Below are positions 53,961-61,972 of a stretch of 64,000 nt of DNA, piece after piece. Numbering within the stretch: the stretch's first letter is position 1; each line of letters opens with the position of its first letter. Source of the DNA: Oceanococcus sp. HetDA_MAG_MS8 (lineage in GTDB: Bacteria > Pseudomonadota > Gammaproteobacteria > Nevskiales > Oceanococcaceae); contig JAHCMK010000001.1 of the NCBI GenBank assembly GCA_019192445.1, positions 1-64,000 of the forward strand, read 5' to 3'. The position numbers and the translations under genes are program-made. The notes under the pieces were generated by a model. That model had not been told where the DNA came from and searched no databases. It saw only the letters and a list, made by a program, of their open reading frames with translations.

Positions 53961-54319
53961 GAGATCACCCCGCGACGCTGCAGAACAAGGACTCCAATAT
54001 ACAGTGCCAGCCCCAGTAATCCAGCAATCAAACCCTGATTAATTTGGGTTTGCATTTGACTGCGTTCGCTGGCGTATTGGTGCAAAACCTCCTCACGAAT
54101 GGCGGCTTTGGCGTCGATTCGCTCTTGCTGGCTGGGAAGGTCTTCACCCGCTTGTTCGGCGCGCACCATATCCAAGGCATAGTTGAGTTCGACGGCCATG
54201 GCGAGTTCCTTGGGGTCGATCTCGGGAATTTGGCGCATTTCGTACCAACGGTACCCGGCCAAGGCAAAACCCACGCAAAGCAGTAGGGCGGGCAGGGTGC
54301 GGGGGTTGGCGAACAGCAT
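53957..54319 (-). CDS. Small two-TM protein of unknown function
   Basis: 120 residues. An N-terminal membrane segment (LPALLLCVGFALAGYRWY), a middle helical segment (PSQQERIDAKAAIREEVLHQYASERSQMQTQI) and a C-terminal membrane segment (GLIAGLLGLALYIGVLVLQRR). No family recognised. ATGA overlap with the alpha/beta hydrolase suggests joint function. Confidence 0.7.
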   Translation of the reverse strand: MLFANPRTLPALLLCVGFALAGYRWYEMRQIPEIDPKELAMAVELNYALDMVRAEQAGEDLPSQQERIDAKAAIREEVLHQYASERSQMQTQINQGLIAGLLGLALYIGVLVLQRRGVIS

Positions 54320-54492
54320 CGACGACTTATCTCCTCCAGAACAGCGTCAAAGTGTAACGCGGTGCTACACGAATTGCCGCCTCGCTGAGCAGGCTTTGTA
54401 TAGCCTCGGGCTCGGCATCATCAGTGCGCTTGTGCGGGTGCTGCGCACAGACCCAAACTGGGACGCTGTGGCGCGTTTTGCTTAGCGCTTTC

Positions 54493-54930
54493 TTAGGTGC
54501 GAGGCGGGGCCGGGATGTAGACCACTTCCGTGCGGCTGAGGCGGTCGTGCCAGCTGCGACGCCGAGAATCCAGCAAGATATTCCACATCCCTAAGCCCAG
54601 CAGTAACCAGCTCGGAATGGCGCAAATCAGGCGAAGAGCAGCAATAGCCGGAGTCACAGGACCGCCGTCCTCACGGCGAACTTGAAGTCGCCATGCGCGC
54701 ATCCCTAGTGTTTGCCCACCTTTGGACCAAAACCCGATGAAGAAACTAGCGGTGGCGGCGTAAATGACGACGCTAAAAAGGGGGTTACCTCTAGGGACGG
54801 CTTCGCCTCCGGTAACCAACAATGCAGCAAAGCCTAATACGAACCATAAGGCCACAATGAGCAGGGCGTCGTACAAGCTCGCAGCCAGCCTTTTGGGTAG
54901 GGACGCCGGAACAACCAGAATTTGGGTCAT
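54493..54930 (-). CDS. RDD-family membrane protein
   Basis: 145 residues with the RDD-domain start RLAASLYDALLIVALWF (Arg, Asp, Asp in the first helix), two further membrane helices and the typical TLGMRAWRLQVRREDGG loop, then RSWHDRLSRTEVVYI. RDD proteins are thought to be transporters or ion antiporters, but functions are diverse. Its start overlaps the GNAT gene stop by 4 bp. Confidence 0.88.
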   Translation of the reverse strand: MTQILVVPASLPKRLAASLYDALLIVALWFVLGFAALLVTGGEAVPRGNPLFSVVIYAATASFFIGFWSKGGQTLGMRAWRLQVRREDGGPVTPAIAALRLICAIPSWLLLGLGMWNILLDSRRRSWHDRLSRTEVVYIPAPPRT

Positions 54931-55436
54931 TGAGCCTGAGCGAATTCGGTCAGTGGTAGCCCCAACTCATCCAGCACACTGGCTAGAGTTCTTTGCGGCG
55001 GCTCTAAGGAACGCTCCATGGGCGTGTGTAGGATGCCCGCCTCGATGAAGTCATCGCCGCAGACGCTAAACCCCGCGGCGGTATAAAAAGCAACGGCATC
55101 TTTTTGTGCGTGCAAACTCACCCGGCGTAAGCCACGGTCGGCTGCGCAGGCTAGTAGGCCGCGTAATACGCGTTGCCCCAAACCCCGTCGCCGGTGCTCG
55201 GTGCGCACGGCCATCCGTCCTATACGACCCTCGGGCAGCATGCGGCCGGTTGCCAACAGGCACTGGGTGTCTTTCTCCCTCAGGCTTAAATGGAAGCAGT
55301 CGCCATCACGCTCATCCATCTCCACCGATTCTGGTACGCCTTGTTCTTGAACGAAGACTGTTCTCCGCAGGTCGCGTACCGCGTCCAGGTCACCACCGGC
55401 ACCCGGACGAATGAGTTCTACTTGCACATTAATCAT
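54927..55436 (-). CDS. GNAT N-acetyltransferase
   Basis: 169 residues from the ATG at 55436; the frame is open to 55469, but this start overlaps the protease stop in an ATGATTAA junction. Acetyl-CoA-binding motif A is GRIGRMAVRTEHRRRGLGQRVLRGLLACAADRG, and the ElaA-like start DLRRTVFVQEQGVPESVEMDERD supports a small-molecule or peptide acetyltransferase. Between the protease and the RDD protein, overlapping both. Confidence 0.9.
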   Translation of the reverse strand: MINVQVELIRPGAGGDLDAVRDLRRTVFVQEQGVPESVEMDERDGDCFHLSLREKDTQCLLATGRMLPEGRIGRMAVRTEHRRRGLGQRVLRGLLACAADRGLRRVSLHAQKDAVAFYTAAGFSVCGDDFIEAGILHTPMERSLEPPQRTLASVLDELGLPLTEFAQAQ

Positions 55437-57138
55437 GACGAATCCCGCGGCCATGCCGGCCTCTGCCATACAGTCCTACTAAACCCAACAACACGAATAT
55501 CGGCCAGCCTGCAGCCCCACCGCGCAGAGAATCTAGGCTGCGGGAGTCAACCTGGCTGGGCTCAGCTCGTGTCACCGTGGCGCTGGCCTGACTCACGTTT
55601 CCGAAACGGTCCATGATTTGATATTCGATGTCGTCCACCGCGGCATTCCCAGCGGAGTAGAACAGCATGCCTTCGCGGACCTCGACCTGTCCCGATGAGG
55701 CTTGAGCAGACAAAATACGCAGCGGGCGGAGGCCGCTGTCGTTGATCAGTACAGCTAAGGGTACGGCGCGGGATGGTGCTGCCGAGAGGACATAGTTGTC
55801 GGAGCGGGCATCGGCGCGTACCTCGGTGCTATCCAGGCCATCAATGGCGCGTTCACCGGATCCGATGGGGTCCAACCACGCGCGCAGCTGCTCGGCAGGA
55901 TCAGTGCTGGGAGTCCAGCCAAAGTCGAGTCGACCGTAGAAATCGGTGCCACTGGCGTTATCGCAGCTGGAGGTGCCTCCAGAGAGTTGACCGACCACGC
56001 GCCCCAGATCATCAAACAGTCCAGAACCGCTAGATCCGGGCTCGGTCACCCCCTGTTCCCAATTCACAGCCCAACTCTGTACGGGCTCTCCATCGACCAG
56101 AGGGCGATCTTTGCGGGGGCGACGGTTAAAGGAGCTAATCCGCTTCTCATCACCATTGGGGTGATGCACGCTCACGCCAGAGTTAAAGGTATCGCCGGTA
56201 CTGTCCCAGCCGGCGTAGTACACATCGAAGCTTGTTGGTGGGTTCTGGCGCAGGCGTAAGAGCGCGAAGTCTGGGTCGGAGCGGCGTGCTAACAAGGTTC
56301 CGCCAGACTGGTTTTGGCGGAGGCTGCCATCAGGATTCCCGCCACAACTTGAGGTTTCAAAGTTCCAATACACCACCGTGTTGTCGGCATTGCTCGCAGT
56401 GAGGCCGCAGTGATCGGCTGTGAGCAGCAAGGGGGTGCCGTCGCGCGCGGTATTGTTAAGCAAAACTGCGCTGCAGCGTGCGGTTCCGTTGACGGTAATG
56501 CGCGCTGTGGCCCGAATGGCTTCCGGCCACGAATCACCCAATGGGCAAGCAGTATCGATATTGCAGCTGCCCGATTTGGTTTGCGCCGTATCGTTGGCGC
56601 GGCTACGCCAAGGGCGATAGCCATGTTGCACGCCGCGAATGTGCAGATCTGCTCGGTTCGCGGCGGCTTGATTGGCAAACTCCATTTCCAACACCATCGA
56701 TGCGCCGGGAACGATGGGAGACTGGTAACTCTGCCGCTGGTGAAGGTCGGTGATCTCGTGCCAAACCACGCCCTGCGAATCGGCAATGCGGAGAATGCTT
56801 CCGGCGGGAATTTGCAGATTCATTAAGCGCGCGCTGAGCGATAGTGCGCCAGTGGACTGATACTGCAAGCGCCATACGGGCTTATCGTCGCGCGTCATCC
56901 ATTGCCCATGTTCACGCAGGCTATGACGCAGGGGGACGTTGAGAGCGTAGTCCAAGGCGCGCCCTTTCACCACCGGGCGCTGGAGAGCATCGGCTACGGC
57001 GCTCTGTAAGGCTGGCAAGCGAATGCCGGCGAGCATATCCAACCCTTCCAATATGGGGCGGGTCAGAGCACTAGCGGGAAGGCTCAAGCACAGCAGGGCG
57101 AGTGCTACGATTTTTTGACGCATGTGTAATGCAGGCAT
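55429..57138 (-). CDS. Secreted Lys-C-like serine protease with GlyGly-CTERM-type tail
   Basis: 569 residues from an ATG at 57138 or 564 from 57123; both precede a signal peptide (RQKIVALALLCLSLPASA), and the frame is open to 57225. An N-terminal propeptide-like region (about 200 residues) leads to a trypsin-like lysyl endopeptidase domain: His in LLTADHCG (His codon at 56410-56412), Asp in DPDFALLRLRQ, Ser in TEPGSSGSGLFDDLGRVVGQL. Then come a cadherin-like/Ig region and a C-terminal GGAAGWPIFVLLGLVGLYGRGR tail of the Gly-Gly/hydrophobic/basic type used by rhombosortase. It would be a secreted, surface-sorted protease. Confidence 0.9.
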   Translation of the reverse strand: MPALHMRQKIVALALLCLSLPASALTRPILEGLDMLAGIRLPALQSAVADALQRPVVKGRALDYALNVPLRHSLREHGQWMTRDDKPVWRLQYQSTGALSLSARLMNLQIPAGSILRIADSQGVVWHEITDLHQRQSYQSPIVPGASMVLEMEFANQAAANRADLHIRGVQHGYRPWRSRANDTAQTKSGSCNIDTACPLGDSWPEAIRATARITVNGTARCSAVLLNNTARDGTPLLLTADHCGLTASNADNTVVYWNFETSSCGGNPDGSLRQNQSGGTLLARRSDPDFALLRLRQNPPTSFDVYYAGWDSTGDTFNSGVSVHHPNGDEKRISSFNRRPRKDRPLVDGEPVQSWAVNWEQGVTEPGSSGSGLFDDLGRVVGQLSGGTSSCDNASGTDFYGRLDFGWTPSTDPAEQLRAWLDPIGSGERAIDGLDSTEVRADARSDNYVLSAAPSRAVPLAVLINDSGLRPLRILSAQASSGQVEVREGMLFYSAGNAAVDDIEYQIMDRFGNVSQASATVTRAEPSQVDSRSLDSLRGGAAGWPIFVLLGLVGLYGRGRHGRGIRHD

Positions 57139-57225
57139 GGCAGAGTCCATCATTGTGCCAAGCATAGGGCCTGGGCTCCAGTCGTGAATACGGCTCAGCT
57201 TGGAGTCTGAGATGCGTTTGGTCAC

Positions 57226-57975
57226 TCAGGCGCCGGGTGATAGCCCTGGCCAAGAGCGCAGAATTAAGGTGAGTCCTGCCATGACCAAGACCAAGTACAA
57301 GCCCCGTCGGAACAAATTGTCGGAGACCTTATAGTGCAGCCAATCGCCCGCGCGCAGGCCCAGCCAGAGCACTGGCATCGCCCACAGGATGTGCGTCCAA
57401 GACTGCTCATCTACACGGCCACGCCAGATGAAGCTGGCAAACAACACGCTGTTGGTGAGCAACCAGATACACAACAAACTGGCGCGAAAGCTCTGCCTAG
57501 AGAGCTGCATACGGTCCATAGCGTAGGCGATGAAAGGGCCGCCACTGGCATACAGGCCTTGGGCCAACCCGCCAATACCCAAGCTAAGCCAACGCTGCAA
57601 AGGAGCAATGGGTTGAGGAGCTTGATGCACTCGCAGGCTTTCCCAGCTGGCAATGCTGGTGACTAACACTCCATAGCCCACCGCCAGCCACTGGGAGCGT
57701 AGCCATATGCTGGTTACCGCGCCGATCAGGAACCCGATTCCAGCCAAAGGCAACACCTGCTGCAGAAGCAGGTTGAGAGCGATGTGCTCCCGCGAACGCC
57801 AGGCCAACCAGCCAGACAGCGGAATATTGAGCGCTACTACCACAGGCAATAGTTGCTCCAGCGGCCACAGATGGGCGCCTAGGCTCAGAGCGATAATGTT
57901 GGCTCCAAAGCCAATCATGGCCTGCGTGGTGTAGGCCATGAAAATGATCAGTCCCAACAGTACAACCGTGATCAT
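57226..57975 (-). CDS. TSUP (TauE/SafE) family sulfur/anion transporter
   Basis: 249 residues from the ATG at 57975; the frame is open to 58173 through the preceding gene. Around eight membrane segments, opening with VVLLGLIIFMAYTTQAMIGFGANIIAL and continuing with the repeat-like LSLGIGGLAQGLYASGGPFIAYAM (the two GxG-rich TSUP hairpins). Members export sulfite, organosulfonates or other anions. It is 5 bp after the ATP-grasp gene, so its substrate may relate to that gene's product. Confidence 0.88.
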   Translation of the reverse strand: MITVVLLGLIIFMAYTTQAMIGFGANIIALSLGAHLWPLEQLLPVVVALNIPLSGWLAWRSREHIALNLLLQQVLPLAGIGFLIGAVTSIWLRSQWLAVGYGVLVTSIASWESLRVHQAPQPIAPLQRWLSLGIGGLAQGLYASGGPFIAYAMDRMQLSRQSFRASLLCIWLLTNSVLFASFIWRGRVDEQSWTHILWAMPVLWLGLRAGDWLHYKVSDNLFRRGLYLVLVMAGLTLILRSWPGLSPGA

Positions 57976-57980
57976 GTCGC

Positions 57981-59105
57981 CTAGTGCAGATGTTGGGTCG
58001 GTTGTGCAGCGGCTGCCGCAGCCTCGCAGTCTGTAAAACGCTTGAGATCGGTTCGAAATAGCTGCAAAAGCCGCCAGGGTGATAGCGCCTGATGTGAGCC
58101 TGCGGTTAAACGCATGTGCCCCAGGCGAAATGCCTGCGACCAATGTTGGGCAAATGTACGCAAACCATGCCAATAAGCTGTGCCGGGGTGATACACATGG
58201 GCGGGCTCAGAGGTCACACCATTCACCTCTAGTACCTGAAGATCGCGTCCTTGCTGGAGTGCCTGAGCACTTGGGCAGCGTAGATCGATACGGCCGAAAT
58301 CGAAGCCGGGAATGGCATCACACACTTGCTGCATGCTTTGGGTCAAGGCGGGGCTGCGAAGATGCTGCGCACTACGAAACTCTGCGCCGCGGCAATGTGC
58401 ACCGATTTGCGCCAGCGGAATCACCTCTAGCGCGGCGGGGGTGCGTTGAAGTTGCTGGGCCCATTGGCGCCAGAGTATGGGAGCCATCAGACGTCCCCGC
58501 GGGTCCGCGAGGATGAGCTCGGCCAGCGTGCGGACCCCATCCCCAGTCAGCGACGGCAGGTGTTTATGGGTGAGAGAACTCACTCGAATGCAGCCGCCGG
58601 GCTGGTCGCGCTGGACAAATACGCCATATTCATCACCGCCAACATAGGCCTGGGCTAATACGGCGAAGTTCGCTCGGTTTAAATAGCGTTTGGCAGCTGC
58701 AGCGTCATGAATGATGGCAACGCCGCGCCCGCGCTGTCCGATGTCAGGCTTTAGCACCACAGGCCAGCCGTGAGTCTTCACCAAAGCCTCAATTTGGCGG
58801 GCGGCCGCATCCACATCAGGACTCAGGAGCACCGTGGCTGGCAGGCTATGAGGTAGACGCTCCTGTAGTGCTAGCAAGGTGCGTGACTTGCGCTCGCCAA
58901 CCACGCTGCCGTTATCCATGCCAGGGTTGCAGGCAGTAAAAGCTGTCCAATGTCGGTGGCGTAGTCCCAAGGCCAAGATCCACAGTACCACTGGAAAGTA
59001 AAACAACCAGCCCGGCCAAAACTCCCATCGACGCCAACGCTCCAAGCGCAGTAGCAAATGCTGCCACCCACCCAGATGCGCAGCTGGCTTAGCTGCTGAT
59101 GGCAC
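57981..59105 (-). CDS. Membrane-anchored ATP-grasp ligase of unknown substrate
   Basis: 374 residues from a GTG at 59105; a TTG at 59159 gives 392 residues but overlaps the DinB-like gene by 71 bp. Start is uncertain. An N-terminal WEFWPGWLFYFPVVLWILALG segment is probably a membrane anchor. The ATP-grasp core includes VVLKPDIGQRGRGVAII (the glycine-rich/Lys ATP loop), AQAYVGGDEYGVFV and FDFGRIDLRC, then LEVNGVTSEPAHVYHPG, which provides the metal-binding Glu/Asn. Members ligate carboxylates to amines (D-Ala-D-Ala ligase and glutathione-synthetase relatives). This anchored subfamily is common in Proteobacteria and Bacteroidetes but, to my knowledge, uncharacterised. Confidence 0.82.
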   Translation of the reverse strand: MPSAAKPAAHLGGWQHLLLRLERWRRWEFWPGWLFYFPVVLWILALGLRHRHWTAFTACNPGMDNGSVVGERKSRTLLALQERLPHSLPATVLLSPDVDAAARQIEALVKTHGWPVVLKPDIGQRGRGVAIIHDAAAAKRYLNRANFAVLAQAYVGGDEYGVFVQRDQPGGCIRVSSLTHKHLPSLTGDGVRTLAELILADPRGRLMAPILWRQWAQQLQRTPAALEVIPLAQIGAHCRGAEFRSAQHLRSPALTQSMQQVCDAIPGFDFGRIDLRCPSAQALQQGRDLQVLEVNGVTSEPAHVYHPGTAYWHGLRTFAQHWSQAFRLGHMRLTAGSHQALSPWRLLQLFRTDLKRFTDCEAAAAAAQPTQHLH

Positions 59106-59598
59106 GCTGCTCAAAGGCAATGGTAGCTGGTGCTTTACCGAAGCTTGCGGATAGCTCAACGCCAGCGTCTTGCGCCCGTGCGCGAATCACTGCCTGGTGG
59201 TGTATGGCGTGGCTTTGCAAAAACAGTAATTCCCGTCCAAGAGTGCTCTGTGTGACCACCGGGTCCTCATTGGGATCGGAAGCTAAGGCGATGCGAAGTT
59301 GCAGACTGAGGTCTGCTTGCTGCAGTTGCTCCAAACCGAGCAGCAGCCGGCGTAAGCGATGTGCAGCGAAGCTGCGATCCTGCTCGCTGCGGGTATCTCT
59401 GGAACGCTGGTCATAGTCCACCAGCTGCCCTTCTGACCAAGCGCCGAGAAGCATGTCGTAATGGTCGAGTACATGCCGTAGGTGGGGCCCGATCACCTCC
59501 TGAAACACACTGCAGGGCAAGGCCGCATCAGTACATAAGGGGAGAAAAGCGCCCAAGGTGCTGCGGCTGTGTTCGATTAGGCGGTAGGCCGCTGTCAC
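59089..59598 (-). CDS. DinB-like four-helix protein
   Basis: 169 residues from a GTG at 59598 in a GTGA overlap with the upstream gene and GAGGAC ribosome binding site; the frame is open to 59802. The DinB/YfiT metal ligands fit: a His in LRHVLDHYDMLL and the pair in LFLQSHAIHHQAVIRA, and the ending FGKAPATIAFEQ resembles GFGVAPSTL. DinB-like proteins include thiol-dependent transferases (bacillithiol, mycothiol) and EgtB-like enzymes. Role here unknown. Confidence 0.78.
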   Translation of the reverse strand: MTAAYRLIEHSRSTLGAFLPLCTDAALPCSVFQEVIGPHLRHVLDHYDMLLGAWSEGQLVDYDQRSRDTRSEQDRSFAAHRLRRLLLGLEQLQQADLSLQLRIALASDPNEDPVVTQSTLGRELLFLQSHAIHHQAVIRARAQDAGVELSASFGKAPATIAFEQRAISS

Positions 59599-60026
59599 GG
59601 ATTTGTCCTCAAAGTTGGGGTGGGCTGCGCGACACCATATTGACTTAAACCCCAAGAAAAACTGACACAAAACACCACGGTGATCGGAATGCCGGGCGCC
59701 AGTGTGAGCAGAATTTCGGGCGTGCCATTGAGCCAATGCGCGGCAACGATGAGAGTGTACAGGCTGATTAAGGTTCCCAGTACGCAGCGCAAGAAACGCC
59801 ACCAGCGTGGCCCCGGCAGAGCGTACAGGGCCCGCATGAGCCGAGTTCCGCTGTAGGTGACGACAAAACTTATGCTGCCATGCAAAACCGCGGCGCGAGC
59901 TGCGACCGAGAAACCATGCTCATGGTTTGCCCACAGAGTCCATAGGCCATAAAAAGCAAAGCCTATACATGCTCCGCTGAAGCCGTCGGCCAAGTTCCAT
60001 ATTCGTTCACCCCATGTACTAAGCAT
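59595..60026 (-). CDS. Four-TM membrane protein of unknown function
   Basis: 143 residues with four hydrophobic segments: FSGACIGFAFYGLWTLW, AVLHGSISFVVTYSG, VLGTLISLYTLIVAAHWL and PGIPITVVFCVSFSWGL. No family recognised; small repeated membrane protein. It overlaps the ArsR-methyltransferase gene by 8 bp and the DinB-like gene by 4 bp, so it is part of the same translationally coupled run. Confidence 0.75.
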   Translation of the reverse strand: MLSTWGERIWNLADGFSGACIGFAFYGLWTLWANHEHGFSVAARAAVLHGSISFVVTYSGTRLMRALYALPGPRWWRFLRCVLGTLISLYTLIVAAHWLNGTPEILLTLAPGIPITVVFCVSFSWGLSQYGVAQPTPTLRTNP

Positions 60027-60966
60027 CGTTTAAGCAGGCGTGCAGCACATGGACTTGGTGAAACGGAGGGCGGCTTTCACTACTCAGAGATACGGTGTCG
60101 TCCACCATGCTCAGTCCTGCTTGGGCCAGTAAGTTGTCCAGTTGGCTCTGAGCAAAGCCGAGGTTTTGGTGGTCATAGGTGGCGACACTGGCTTCATGCT
60201 GATGCGCGTCTAGCGTTGCCAACCAGACACGGCCCTGAGGCTTCAAAACGCGAGCCGCCTCACGCAGCACTTGTGCGGCGTTGGCTGAGTATTGCAGGGC
60301 ATTGAGCAACACCACAGAACTAAAGCTCGCATCGCGAAAGGGGAGAGCATGCATATCCCCCTGCAGATAAGGGACTTGGTCTAAACCGGCTTGCTGCAGC
60401 CGACGCCGACCAGCGGCCGCAACGGTGTTGTCGATGTCAAGACAGACATAACGTCTCGCTCTGGGCGCGAGAAGCTCGGCAATAACGCCATCTCCAGCAG
60501 CGATGTCCAATACTTCTCCCAGCTTGAGTTCAGGAATCAATGCCCGACTCACGACTTCCCAGCCACGTCCTGGGGAGTAATGTTTTTCCATCTCCCCGGC
60601 AACCCGTGCTGCCCATCCAGGACGGCCTTGCCGACGAGCCTGCAGGGCACGCGCCGCCTCAAGGTCTTGTTCCAGCTCCACACCTTGGGACTGCTCACGC
60701 AGAACAGGCAGCATGCCAGCAATGGTTTTGGGAATTGGGTCGCGGAGCTGTTGCAGGCTGAAGTTGCCTTGGCGCTGCTCATCCAATAGGCCCAGCCGGC
60801 GTAAGCGCCCCAAGTGGGATGACACCCGTGATTGCGCCAGGCCTGTGAGCTCGGTGAGCTCAGCTACGCTCAGTGGGACCTGACCCAAGATGAGCAGGAT
60901 GCGCAGGCGCGTGGGCTCGGCAAGAACCCGCAGGGTTTCGGCAGTATTTGAAATGGAACTTTGCAT
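60019..60966 (-). CDS. ArsR-family regulator fused to a SAM-dependent methyltransferase
   Basis: 315 residues. Residues 1-85 form an ArsR/SmtB winged helix (LAEPTRLRILLILGQVPLSVAELTELTGLAQSRVSSHLGRLRRLGLL). Residues 140-315 form a class I methyltransferase with motif I GEVLDIAAGDGVIAELLAP and the DMHALPFRDASFSSVVLLNAL catalytic region. Fusion of a metal-type repressor with a methyltransferase is a known but little-studied architecture; it may link SAM or product levels to expression. First gene of the operon. Its GGAGG ribosome binding site is inside the terminator stem at 60970-60994. Confidence 0.92.
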   Translation of the reverse strand: MQSSISNTAETLRVLAEPTRLRILLILGQVPLSVAELTELTGLAQSRVSSHLGRLRRLGLLDEQRQGNFSLQQLRDPIPKTIAGMLPVLREQSQGVELEQDLEAARALQARRQGRPGWAARVAGEMEKHYSPGRGWEVVSRALIPELKLGEVLDIAAGDGVIAELLAPRARRYVCLDIDNTVAAAGRRRLQQAGLDQVPYLQGDMHALPFRDASFSSVVLLNALQYSANAAQVLREAARVLKPQGRVWLATLDAHQHEASVATYDHQNLGFAQSQLDNLLAQAGLSMVDDTVSLSSESRPPFHQVHVLHACLNDA

Positions 60967-60969
60967 AGT

Positions 60970-60994
60970 AAAACGCCTCCGCGAGGGAGGCGTT
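60970..60994 (-). terminator. Terminator of the H1-like gene that also covers the ArsR-methyltransferase ribosome binding site
   Basis: AACGCCTCC (60972-60980) and GGAGGCGTT (60986-60994) form a 9-bp stem with a 5-base loop; the minus-strand transcript then runs into TTTTACT. The last arm supplies GGAGG, exactly 9 bases before the ATG at 60966. Confidence 0.8.
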
Positions 60995-61019
60995 CCAAAG
61001 CGTCGCTAGGGCGGAGAGT

Positions 61020-61784
61020 TTAGCTGCTGGTTTTCTTCGCGGCAGAGGTTGCACGTTTCGCCCGTGATGTCACCGTCTTGGCGGTTCCGCTAGCGCTGCC
61101 AGCAGCCTTGGTCGTGCTGCGCTTGGCGGCTGCAGTCGTCTTCTTTGCGGTGGTGCTGGCCTTAGTGGCTGCTTTCCGCGCTGTGGTCTTGGCGTCACTC
61201 GCGGCGGACTTGGCTGTAGTTTTGGCAGTGGATGCCGCAGACTTCGCCGTGGATTTCGCTCTGCTCGCCGTAGTCTTTGCCTTCGATGCGGCTGTCTTTG
61301 CCGTACTGCTCGCGGTTTTCTTAGCGGTGCTCGTTGACTTGCGTGCTGTGCTGGCCGCCTTCGAAGCAGTGCTCTTGGCTTTGGACTTGGCAGCCCCAGC
61401 CGCGTTCGACGCTGCAGATTTGGCCTTGCTGGCGGCCTGTTTGGCTTGCGTGCCGGCTTTGCGCGTTTGAGCAGCGGCCGACTTTTGATCCGCCAGCGCC
61501 AGGGACACTTCACTCCGCGTATCGTCCAAAATTTGCGCGGTCTCTTTGAGGTTCGCCAGGATGCGGTCAAGAGTTTCTTGTACCGTTTCCAGCTGCAACT
61601 GAGCAGCGTCCTTGATGGAGCCCGCTTTACGTGTTGCCTCTAGGCTCTTACGTAGTTCATCGTAATGCGACTTCAAACCATCCAGCTCGTGCTGGACCAA
61701 GCGTTCAAAACCACTGCTGAGTGCGGTGCGCAGCTCTTCTAGCCGCTCTTTAATACGTGCCGCACGATTTGTCGTTGCCGCCAT
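61020..61784 (-). CDS. Phasin-like / histone H1-like Ala-Lys-rich protein
   Basis: 254 residues. The N-terminal 110 residues are a helical, phasin-like coiled coil (RIKERLEELRTALSSGFERLVQHELDGLKSHYDEL and LQLETVQETLDRILANLKETAQILDD). The C-terminal 140 residues are a low-complexity Ala/Lys/Ser/Thr array of AAKKTA/SKAKSTA units like histone H1 tails and PhaF/AlgP. Pseudomonas PhaF uses the same design to tie polyhydroxyalkanoate granules to DNA. Its own terminator follows, and the divergent gene is fadB, which fits a lipid-storage link. Confidence 0.83.
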   Translation of the reverse strand: MAATTNRAARIKERLEELRTALSSGFERLVQHELDGLKSHYDELRKSLEATRKAGSIKDAAQLQLETVQETLDRILANLKETAQILDDTRSEVSLALADQKSAAAQTRKAGTQAKQAASKAKSAASNAAGAAKSKAKSTASKAASTARKSTSTAKKTASSTAKTAASKAKTTASRAKSTAKSAASTAKTTAKSAASDAKTTARKAATKASTTAKKTTAAAKRSTTKAAGSASGTAKTVTSRAKRATSAAKKTSS

Positions 61785-61972
61785 TCGCGATATCCCCTAA
61801 GTCCATGGAATAAAAGACTGTTCGGCAGTGTAGAAGGGGTGAAAAGCCGCTGTCAAAGATTCGTGCGGTACAAGGTGCTACCATCGCGAACGTTTTTTCG
61901 CATGGCCCAGCGTCCGACCTTGGTCGATCTAAGCCATGCATTCCCCTTCTAACGACCGGAGAGACACCACCC

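Follow-up and report, generated by a model that had tools for sequence, protein, structure and literature searches.

On the minus strand of the window, by which is meant the 64,000-nucleotide stretch at the start of contig JAHCMK010000001.1 of Oceanococcus sp. HetDA_MAG_MS8, six open reading frames follow one another between positions 55429 and 60966. Three of them, encoding a small membrane protein (TM4), a DinB-like protein and a membrane-anchored ATP-grasp ligase, form a conserved module, and the chances seem to us about even that the window carries here the core of an undescribed aminolipid system. The conservation of the module and its association with aminolipids are well supported by sequence comparison, and the link to lipids is fairly strong; the reaction, the second substrate, the flippase role and the direction of transport are what we infer. 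The original prediction, made from the letters of the window, had seen in the run a candidate system for making, transferring and exporting a soluble thiol or small peptide. Compared with that set, the functional unit is both smaller and older, and its product is more likely a membrane aminolipid, because the partners that recur around it are ornithine-lipid-type acyltransferases together with VTT, TANGO2/NRDE, YHS and DoxX-like proteins.

The three core genes are the following:
59595-60026, minus strand: TM4, a membrane protein of 143 amino acids with four hydrophobic segments and no known family.
59089-59598, minus strand: DinB-like protein of 169 amino acids, with a probable DinB/YfiT fold, a GTG start and a putative metal site.
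57981-59105, minus strand: membrane-anchored ATP-grasp ligase of about 374 amino acids.

The TM4 and DinB-like genes overlap by 4 bp (GTGA), and the DinB-like and ATP-grasp genes by 17 bp, with a putative GTG start of the latter at 59105 in a frame that is open to 59159. Bacterial genes on one strand are often packed closely, and such packing is not significant by itself; the run is of interest because its TM4-DinB-ATP-grasp subset is conserved. This conservation emerges from a close comparison set of 41 related genomes in which ATP-grasp matches were taken at E 1e-30 or better. In all genome sets each species is represented by one genome, part of them metagenome-assembled genomes (MAGs), and in GC-rich loci the genes were called with seeded models and verified by six-frame hidden Markov model search. 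Thirteen genomes besides the window's own have such a match, and in 12 of the 13 the three genes occur in the same order, with TM4 directly upstream of DinB; the thirteenth locus, L036, is a distant ATP-grasp copy with neither DinB nor TM4.

The other genes of the run behave differently:
60019-60966, minus strand: fusion of an ArsR-type helix-turn-helix domain with a class I methyltransferase (Pfam/NCBIfam).
57226-57975, minus strand: TSUP/TauE-SafE transporter (PF01925, E 1e-21).
55429-57225, minus strand: secreted trypsin-like protease (PF13365, E 4e-7).

The ArsR-methyltransferase gene overlaps TM4 by 8 bp, 5 bp separate ATP-grasp from TSUP, and the protease frame abuts TSUP; together with the two overlaps given above, this confirms the layout of six minus-strand frames as originally described. 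The matches above the Pfam cut-off in the window belong to HTH_5 and the methyltransferase, TauE/SafE, the trypsin-like protease, GNAT and RDD, and the TSUP protein is a clear member of TauE/SafE (78 bits against a PF01925 cut-off of 32.6). The window copies of DinB (DinB_2, E 0.0011) and ATP-grasp (RimK, E 0.006) fall below it. As for their neighborhood, the ArsR-methyltransferase, TSUP, protease, GNAT and RDD genes stand beside the core only in G001, the sole other genome of the same genus, and synteny of TSUP with the core is limited to L024/L021, one and the same contig. Since these outer genes are kept only there while 12 of 13 relatives keep the core, the functional unit, as judged from gene order, is the trio of TM4, DinB-like and ATP-grasp genes; regulator, transporter and protease are local neighbors, and the ArsR-methyltransferase fusion is a possible regulator lying upstream of the conserved module. 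The five- or six-gene set proposed as one pathway was consequently rejected, being kept only within the genus. The expectation of a coupled unit that pairs an ATP-grasp protein of the amide-bond-forming type with a DinB-like protein and a membrane component has held, as has the remark that the set is no recognized pathway: no annotated one corresponds to it. The search for co-occurrence suggested at the time gives a divided answer, with the trio kept far beyond close relatives and the remainder in the same genus only.

Could the run from ArsR-methyltransferase to TSUP be instead a pathway peculiar to the genus, with the ArsR-type protein as its regulator and TSUP importing a sulfonate, e.g., taurine, to serve as lipid amine? 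Both genomes of the genus keep the order ArsR-methyltransferase, TM4, DinB, ATP-grasp, TSUP. Cerilipin, the ornithine-taurine lipid of Gluconobacter cerinus, is cited in PMC4484230 and PMC12493201, and the ATP-grasp family is represented in acetic acid bacteria, Komagataeibacter for example. However, the comparison comprises two genomes only, in the second of which about 225 bp lie between ArsR-methyltransferase and TM4, and the Komagataeibacter copy resides on a plasmid, without DinB or VTT. This explanation is very unlikely.

The core reaches much further. Wider surveys with the ATP-grasp family profile (A1) retrieved it from 14 of 398 Pseudomonadota genomes, 25 of 240 Verrucomicrobiota genomes (the phylum of L022, from a Verrucomicrobia MAG) and 23 of 246 Planctomycetota genomes (the phylum of L023, from a Phycisphaeraceae MAG). 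The DinB profile matches adjacent to the ATP-grasp gene or within a few kb of it in three phyla and, on these profile matches, the module is found in at least three bacterial phyla; the viral contigs searched contained no relatives of it. Among the 398 Pseudomonadota genomes the DinB profile is found in 16, of which 10 also have ATP-grasp, leaving four with ATP-grasp alone and six with DinB alone (Fisher p 3e-13, a value that ignores relatedness). DinB is located upstream of ATP-grasp both in the taxonomic order of the window and in bacteria of the Planctomycetes-Verrucomicrobia-Chlamydiae (PVC) group, and downstream in Vibrio-type loci; because it stays linked on either side, the gene order has changed while the linkage has held.

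The carriers include Vibrio, Photobacterium, Salinivibrio, Azospirillum, Komagataeibacter, Paracoccus and Variovorax. The Vibrio-type cassette consists of VTT, ATP-grasp, DinB, TANGO2/NRDE, a YHS protein with an N-terminal hydrophobic, signal-like stretch, a DoxX/MauE-like protein and a two-domain acyltransferase combining PF19576 and PF13444, which is the architecture of OlsF; the Salinivibrio annotation shows such a cassette without OlsF. In Verrucomicrobia and planctomycetes the ATP-grasp domain is fused to VTT, often with an alpha/beta-hydrolase in front, and L162-L179 offer fusions of all three parts that are 825-1006 amino acids long. A lipase is one possibility for this hydrolase, an acyltransferase like the OlsI described in planctomycetes another. 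A lone ATP-grasp copy, annotated as D-alanine--D-alanine ligase and lacking DinB and VTT, sits on the conjugative plasmid pGX5 of Komagataeibacter xylinus (L066), a few genes from arsenic-resistance genes; its host family, the acetic acid bacteria, is the group in which the ornithine-taurine lipid was first reported.

The connection with ornithine lipids comes from the company that the module keeps. An OlsF/OlsB-type acyltransferase lies within 8 kb of ATP-grasp in 26 of 48 loci: 7 of 13 in the window's taxonomic order, 10 of 13 in other Pseudomonadota and 9 of 22 in PVC bacteria. Given a single gene of this type in each 3-4 Mb genome, we estimate the chance of this proximity at well under 1% per locus; like the YHS count given below, the co-occurrence takes no account of phylogeny. 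In L170 and L180 the genes form tight runs, OlsB-OlsA-DinB-NRDE-(hydrolase-)VTT-ATP-grasp, identified by NCBIfam and Pfam, and L171, L172, L174 and L175 have a similar run with some parts missing or undetected. In NCBIfam the PVC OlsB matches L-ornithine N-acyltransferase and the PVC OlsA lyso-ornithine-lipid O-acyltransferase, both at about E 1e-40 and with scores short of the strict equivalog cut-offs. As far as these family assignments go, the module is repeatedly in one operon with both main known kinds of ornithine-lipid synthase, OlsBA and OlsF. The OlsF homologues of V. cholerae are experimentally proven ornithine-lipid synthases, and one of them closes a putative operon of four genes, VCA0649-VCA0646 (PMC12186959).

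The DinB protein has a lipid connection of its own. Of the six genomes with DinB and no ATP-grasp, three have it near OlsF and four near OlsF or NRDE, and gene order points to the existence of a smaller DinB-OlsF(-NRDE) cassette. In L105, L108 and L109 (G047, G256 and G307) the same DinB subfamily adjoins an OlsF-like synthase with no ATP-grasp. The DinB frames of G202 and G256 have one in-frame stop each.

In the window's own genome the linkage is looser. An adjacent OlsB-OlsA pair is found at G000:C3 (NCBIfam E 1e-49 and 5e-35), unlinked to the module, and a YHS-DoxX pair at G000:C4; OlsF was not found in this genome, and a dependence on OlsF only was rejected, OlsBA taking its place here. 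Of the 41 relatives, all 13 with a strong ATP-grasp match (the window's own included, the distant G037 left out) have YHS, linked or not, versus 1 of the 28 others (p 8e-10), and the agreement extends within the genera g10 and g11, where species without one are also without the other. Beside the OlsB-OlsA pair on contig C3 (L117:10352-14737) are an argininosuccinate-synthase-like gene, a DoxX-like relative of the cassette membrane protein, and a GNAT-DUF3335 (C39-like) gene adjoining an RLAN/RimK ATP-grasp gene.

What does TM4 do? Among the loci compared, it occurs without VTT in 14, VTT occurs without it in 17, no locus has both and three have neither; in one locus beyond this count, L067, the VTT gene is on the opposite strand, and in 20 further PVC loci there is VTT or neither of the two. 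Most revealing is L059, where a cassette otherwise of the Vibrio type has TM4 but lacks VTT. Because the two exclude each other in this way, TM4 is probably a replacement for the membrane function of VTT. None of 12 TM4 members matches PF09335, so TM4 does not belong to VTT/DedA, and a search of solved structures with the TM4 profile returned nothing. The VTT/DedA family includes lipid scramblases and transporters, and from this analogy we infer a role in lipid transport for TM4.

The ATP-grasp protein is easier to place. It has one strong hydrophobic segment near its N-terminus, in the E-F-W-P...N-P...G-E-x-K region, and its catalytic K, D, E and N are conserved in at least 54 of 55 family members; with the ATP-binding lysine and the Mg-binding D, E and N in place, it belongs to the ATP-grasp carboxylate-amine ligases. 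The family profile aligns through the ATP-grasp domain of cyanophycin synthetase (E 5e-11), and a fold search with the structure model found GshAB, Ddl and cyanophycin synthetase. Membership in narrower families does not follow: scores against NCBIfam cya_phycin_syn are 28.7 and 32.6 bits against a cut-off of 850, and the name "D-alanine--D-alanine ligase" attached to family members is not supported by curated family scores. The relatives found by profile and fold join an amine to a carboxylate that they have activated; in cyanophycin synthetase and GshAB this carboxylate belongs to a peptide, and peptide bonds result.

For the DinB-like protein the structure model is good (predicted local distance difference test score, pLDDT, 92), and H40, H43, H47, H131, H134 and H135 are invariant in the family. 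The model resembles YfiT/DinB and mycothiol S-transferase weakly, with a TM-score of about 0.6 and Foldseek E of 0.04 or worse, and a solved-structure search with the DinB profile gave nothing; homologues from other phyla pass the DinB Pfam cut-off that the window copy misses. The probable DinB fold, common to mycothiol S-transferase, the gene overlaps and the presence of GshAB among the ATP-grasp relatives are the points in favor of the soluble thiol or small peptide that the five-gene run was first thought to make, transfer and export. Against it, neither the ArsR-methyltransferase nor TSUP is conserved with the core, and in about 50 loci no thiol-synthesis gene recurs; the wider neighborhoods hold nothing that speaks of a low-molecular-weight thiol, and it is OlsF/OlsBA acyltransferases, VTT, TANGO2/NRDE, YHS and DoxX-like proteins that are met instead. 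The chance that this first proposal is right is very slim. In spirit it survives, as a ligase and a membrane step that would make and move a product; the gene set and the class of product do not.

How, then, might an aminolipid system work? OlsB-OlsA, encoded elsewhere in the window's genome, would make an acyloxyacyl amino acid, e.g., an ornithine lipid; the head of such a lipid, an N-acylated amino acid whose carboxylate is free, is chemically similar to the end of a peptide. The membrane-anchored ATP-grasp protein might activate this carboxylate with ATP, as cyanophycin synthetase and GshAB do on peptides, and join it to an amine, such as an amino acid, taurine or a polyamine, to give a lipid with an extended headgroup. 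Headgroup amidation is the most economical reaction to propose because the free carboxylate on the head resembles a peptide end. TM4, in the place held by VTT/DedA in other lineages, would bring the product across the inner membrane, and DinB could be a metal-site accessory or a transferase. YHS and DoxX would act on the periplasmic side, NRDE, YHS and DoxX being partners that are possibly elsewhere in the genome or absent. Two-part aminolipid heads, ornithine-taurine and glycine-serine, are known (PMC12493201), and in the open-access full text examined the aminolipid literature names no enzyme for them. That the module defines a new enzyme class, a membrane-anchored ATP-grasp protein that amidates the carboxylate of an ornithine-type headgroup and acts with a dedicated flippase (VTT or, as its unrelated substitute, TM4), is a tentative proposal, with somewhat less than even chances of being correct.

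Several observations weigh against the aminolipid proposal. About half of the loci lack a lipid gene within 8 kb, and the window and the other genome of its genus are among them. With 36 of the 41 relatives carrying it, OlsB is nearly universal in the taxonomic order and discriminates little; it counts here as a possible source of substrate and not as evidence of linkage. The ATP-grasp model is poor (pLDDT 64, from four sequences), so that its match was used at the level of fold only, and no substrate-specific residue was identified in the protein. TM4 has no detectable similarity to any transporter and no other convincing family match, and the window's genome has no NRDE of the module type. 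Finally, it is established that OlsBA and OlsF make ornithine lipids without these genes; the module must therefore add or change something else.

A different target for the ligase has also to be considered, such as an undecaprenyl- or peptidoglycan-linked precursor or a phospholipid, with the proximity of OlsB/OlsF reflecting general membrane remodeling. D-Ala-D-Ala ligases are among the ATP-grasp relatives, DedA/VTT proteins include undecaprenyl-phosphate transporters, and some loci are without a nearby ornithine-lipid gene. Yet the lipid genes that recur are of the Ols type in three phyla, both as OlsF and as OlsBA, which makes another envelope substrate unlikely. Still less probable is a module that handles haem or metal for envelope enzymes, in which NRDE/TANGO2 would chaperone haem, DinB and YHS would bind metal or haem, VTT and DoxX would be membrane partners, and the lipid genes would be co-regulated stress genes. 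In Shewanella the TANGO2 homologue HtpA is a haem binder that promotes the formation of cytochrome c (PMC10470608), and the six invariant histidines of DinB would suit this role. However, NRDE is missing at E 1e-6 from most carriers in the window's taxonomic order as well, and its place as an essential part of the core was rejected on its absence from the window's genome; moreover, it is hard to see what a ligase whose catalytic residues are intact would do in haem handling, and OlsB-OlsA are in the same operon in PVC phyla.

Around the module, a promoter and terminator scan of 54000-61800 found no sigma-70-type promoter and no useful separation, which proves nothing on its own. At its end the trypsin-like protease (55429-57225) has a short hydrophobic stretch and then basic residues, resembling a sorting tail of the GlyGly-CTERM type. 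Upstream of the run, 61020-61784 encodes an alanine/lysine-rich, histone H1-like protein with long repeat-like K/A/S tracts.

If headgroup amidation is correct, the membrane-anchored ATP-grasp protein, fused in PVC bacteria to hydrolase and VTT, is a candidate builder of the two-residue headgroups ornithine-taurine and glycine-serine. In three phyla the module links a ligase of the peptide type and a membrane domain of the transporter type with known synthases, so that the headgroup gap becomes directly testable, and it gives context to proteins labeled "D-alanine--D-alanine ligase", "DinB family", "NRDE family" or hypothetical. A search of open-access full text for ATP-grasp combined with DinB, TANGO2, DedA or VTT returned nothing relevant; a subscription-only account could exist.

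As for known systems, the closest solved relatives of the ATP-grasp protein are cyanophycin synthetase 1 and GshAB, which share with it the K, D, E and N residues and a G-D-G-x-x-x-L-x-E-L-I stretch; it differs in its N-terminal membrane region, in having no second ligase domain and in an identity that is remote. The DinB-like protein probably has the fold of the DinB/YfiT family, mycothiol S-transferase included, and it has invariant histidines with an H-x-x-x-H pair, but its sequence similarity is weak, its motifs are GPHLRH, SHAIHH and FGKAPAT, and its context is not one of thiols. TM4 holds the same position as VTT/DedA, without sequence similarity and with four short hydrophobic segments. 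The GH3-dependent OlsH/OlsI pathway of planctomycetes also ties a protein of the alpha/beta-hydrolase superfamily to aminolipids in the same phylum, whereas OlsH is a GH3 enzyme and not an ATP-grasp one (PMC12493201). Also close are the OlsBA/OlsF systems, with their OlsC/D/E hydroxylases and OlsG methyltransferase: the same synthase genes recur in the operons of the module, while the published modifying steps that were examined include no ATP-grasp, DinB, NRDE, VTT or TM4 protein, and these would be a new step in ornithine-lipid systems.

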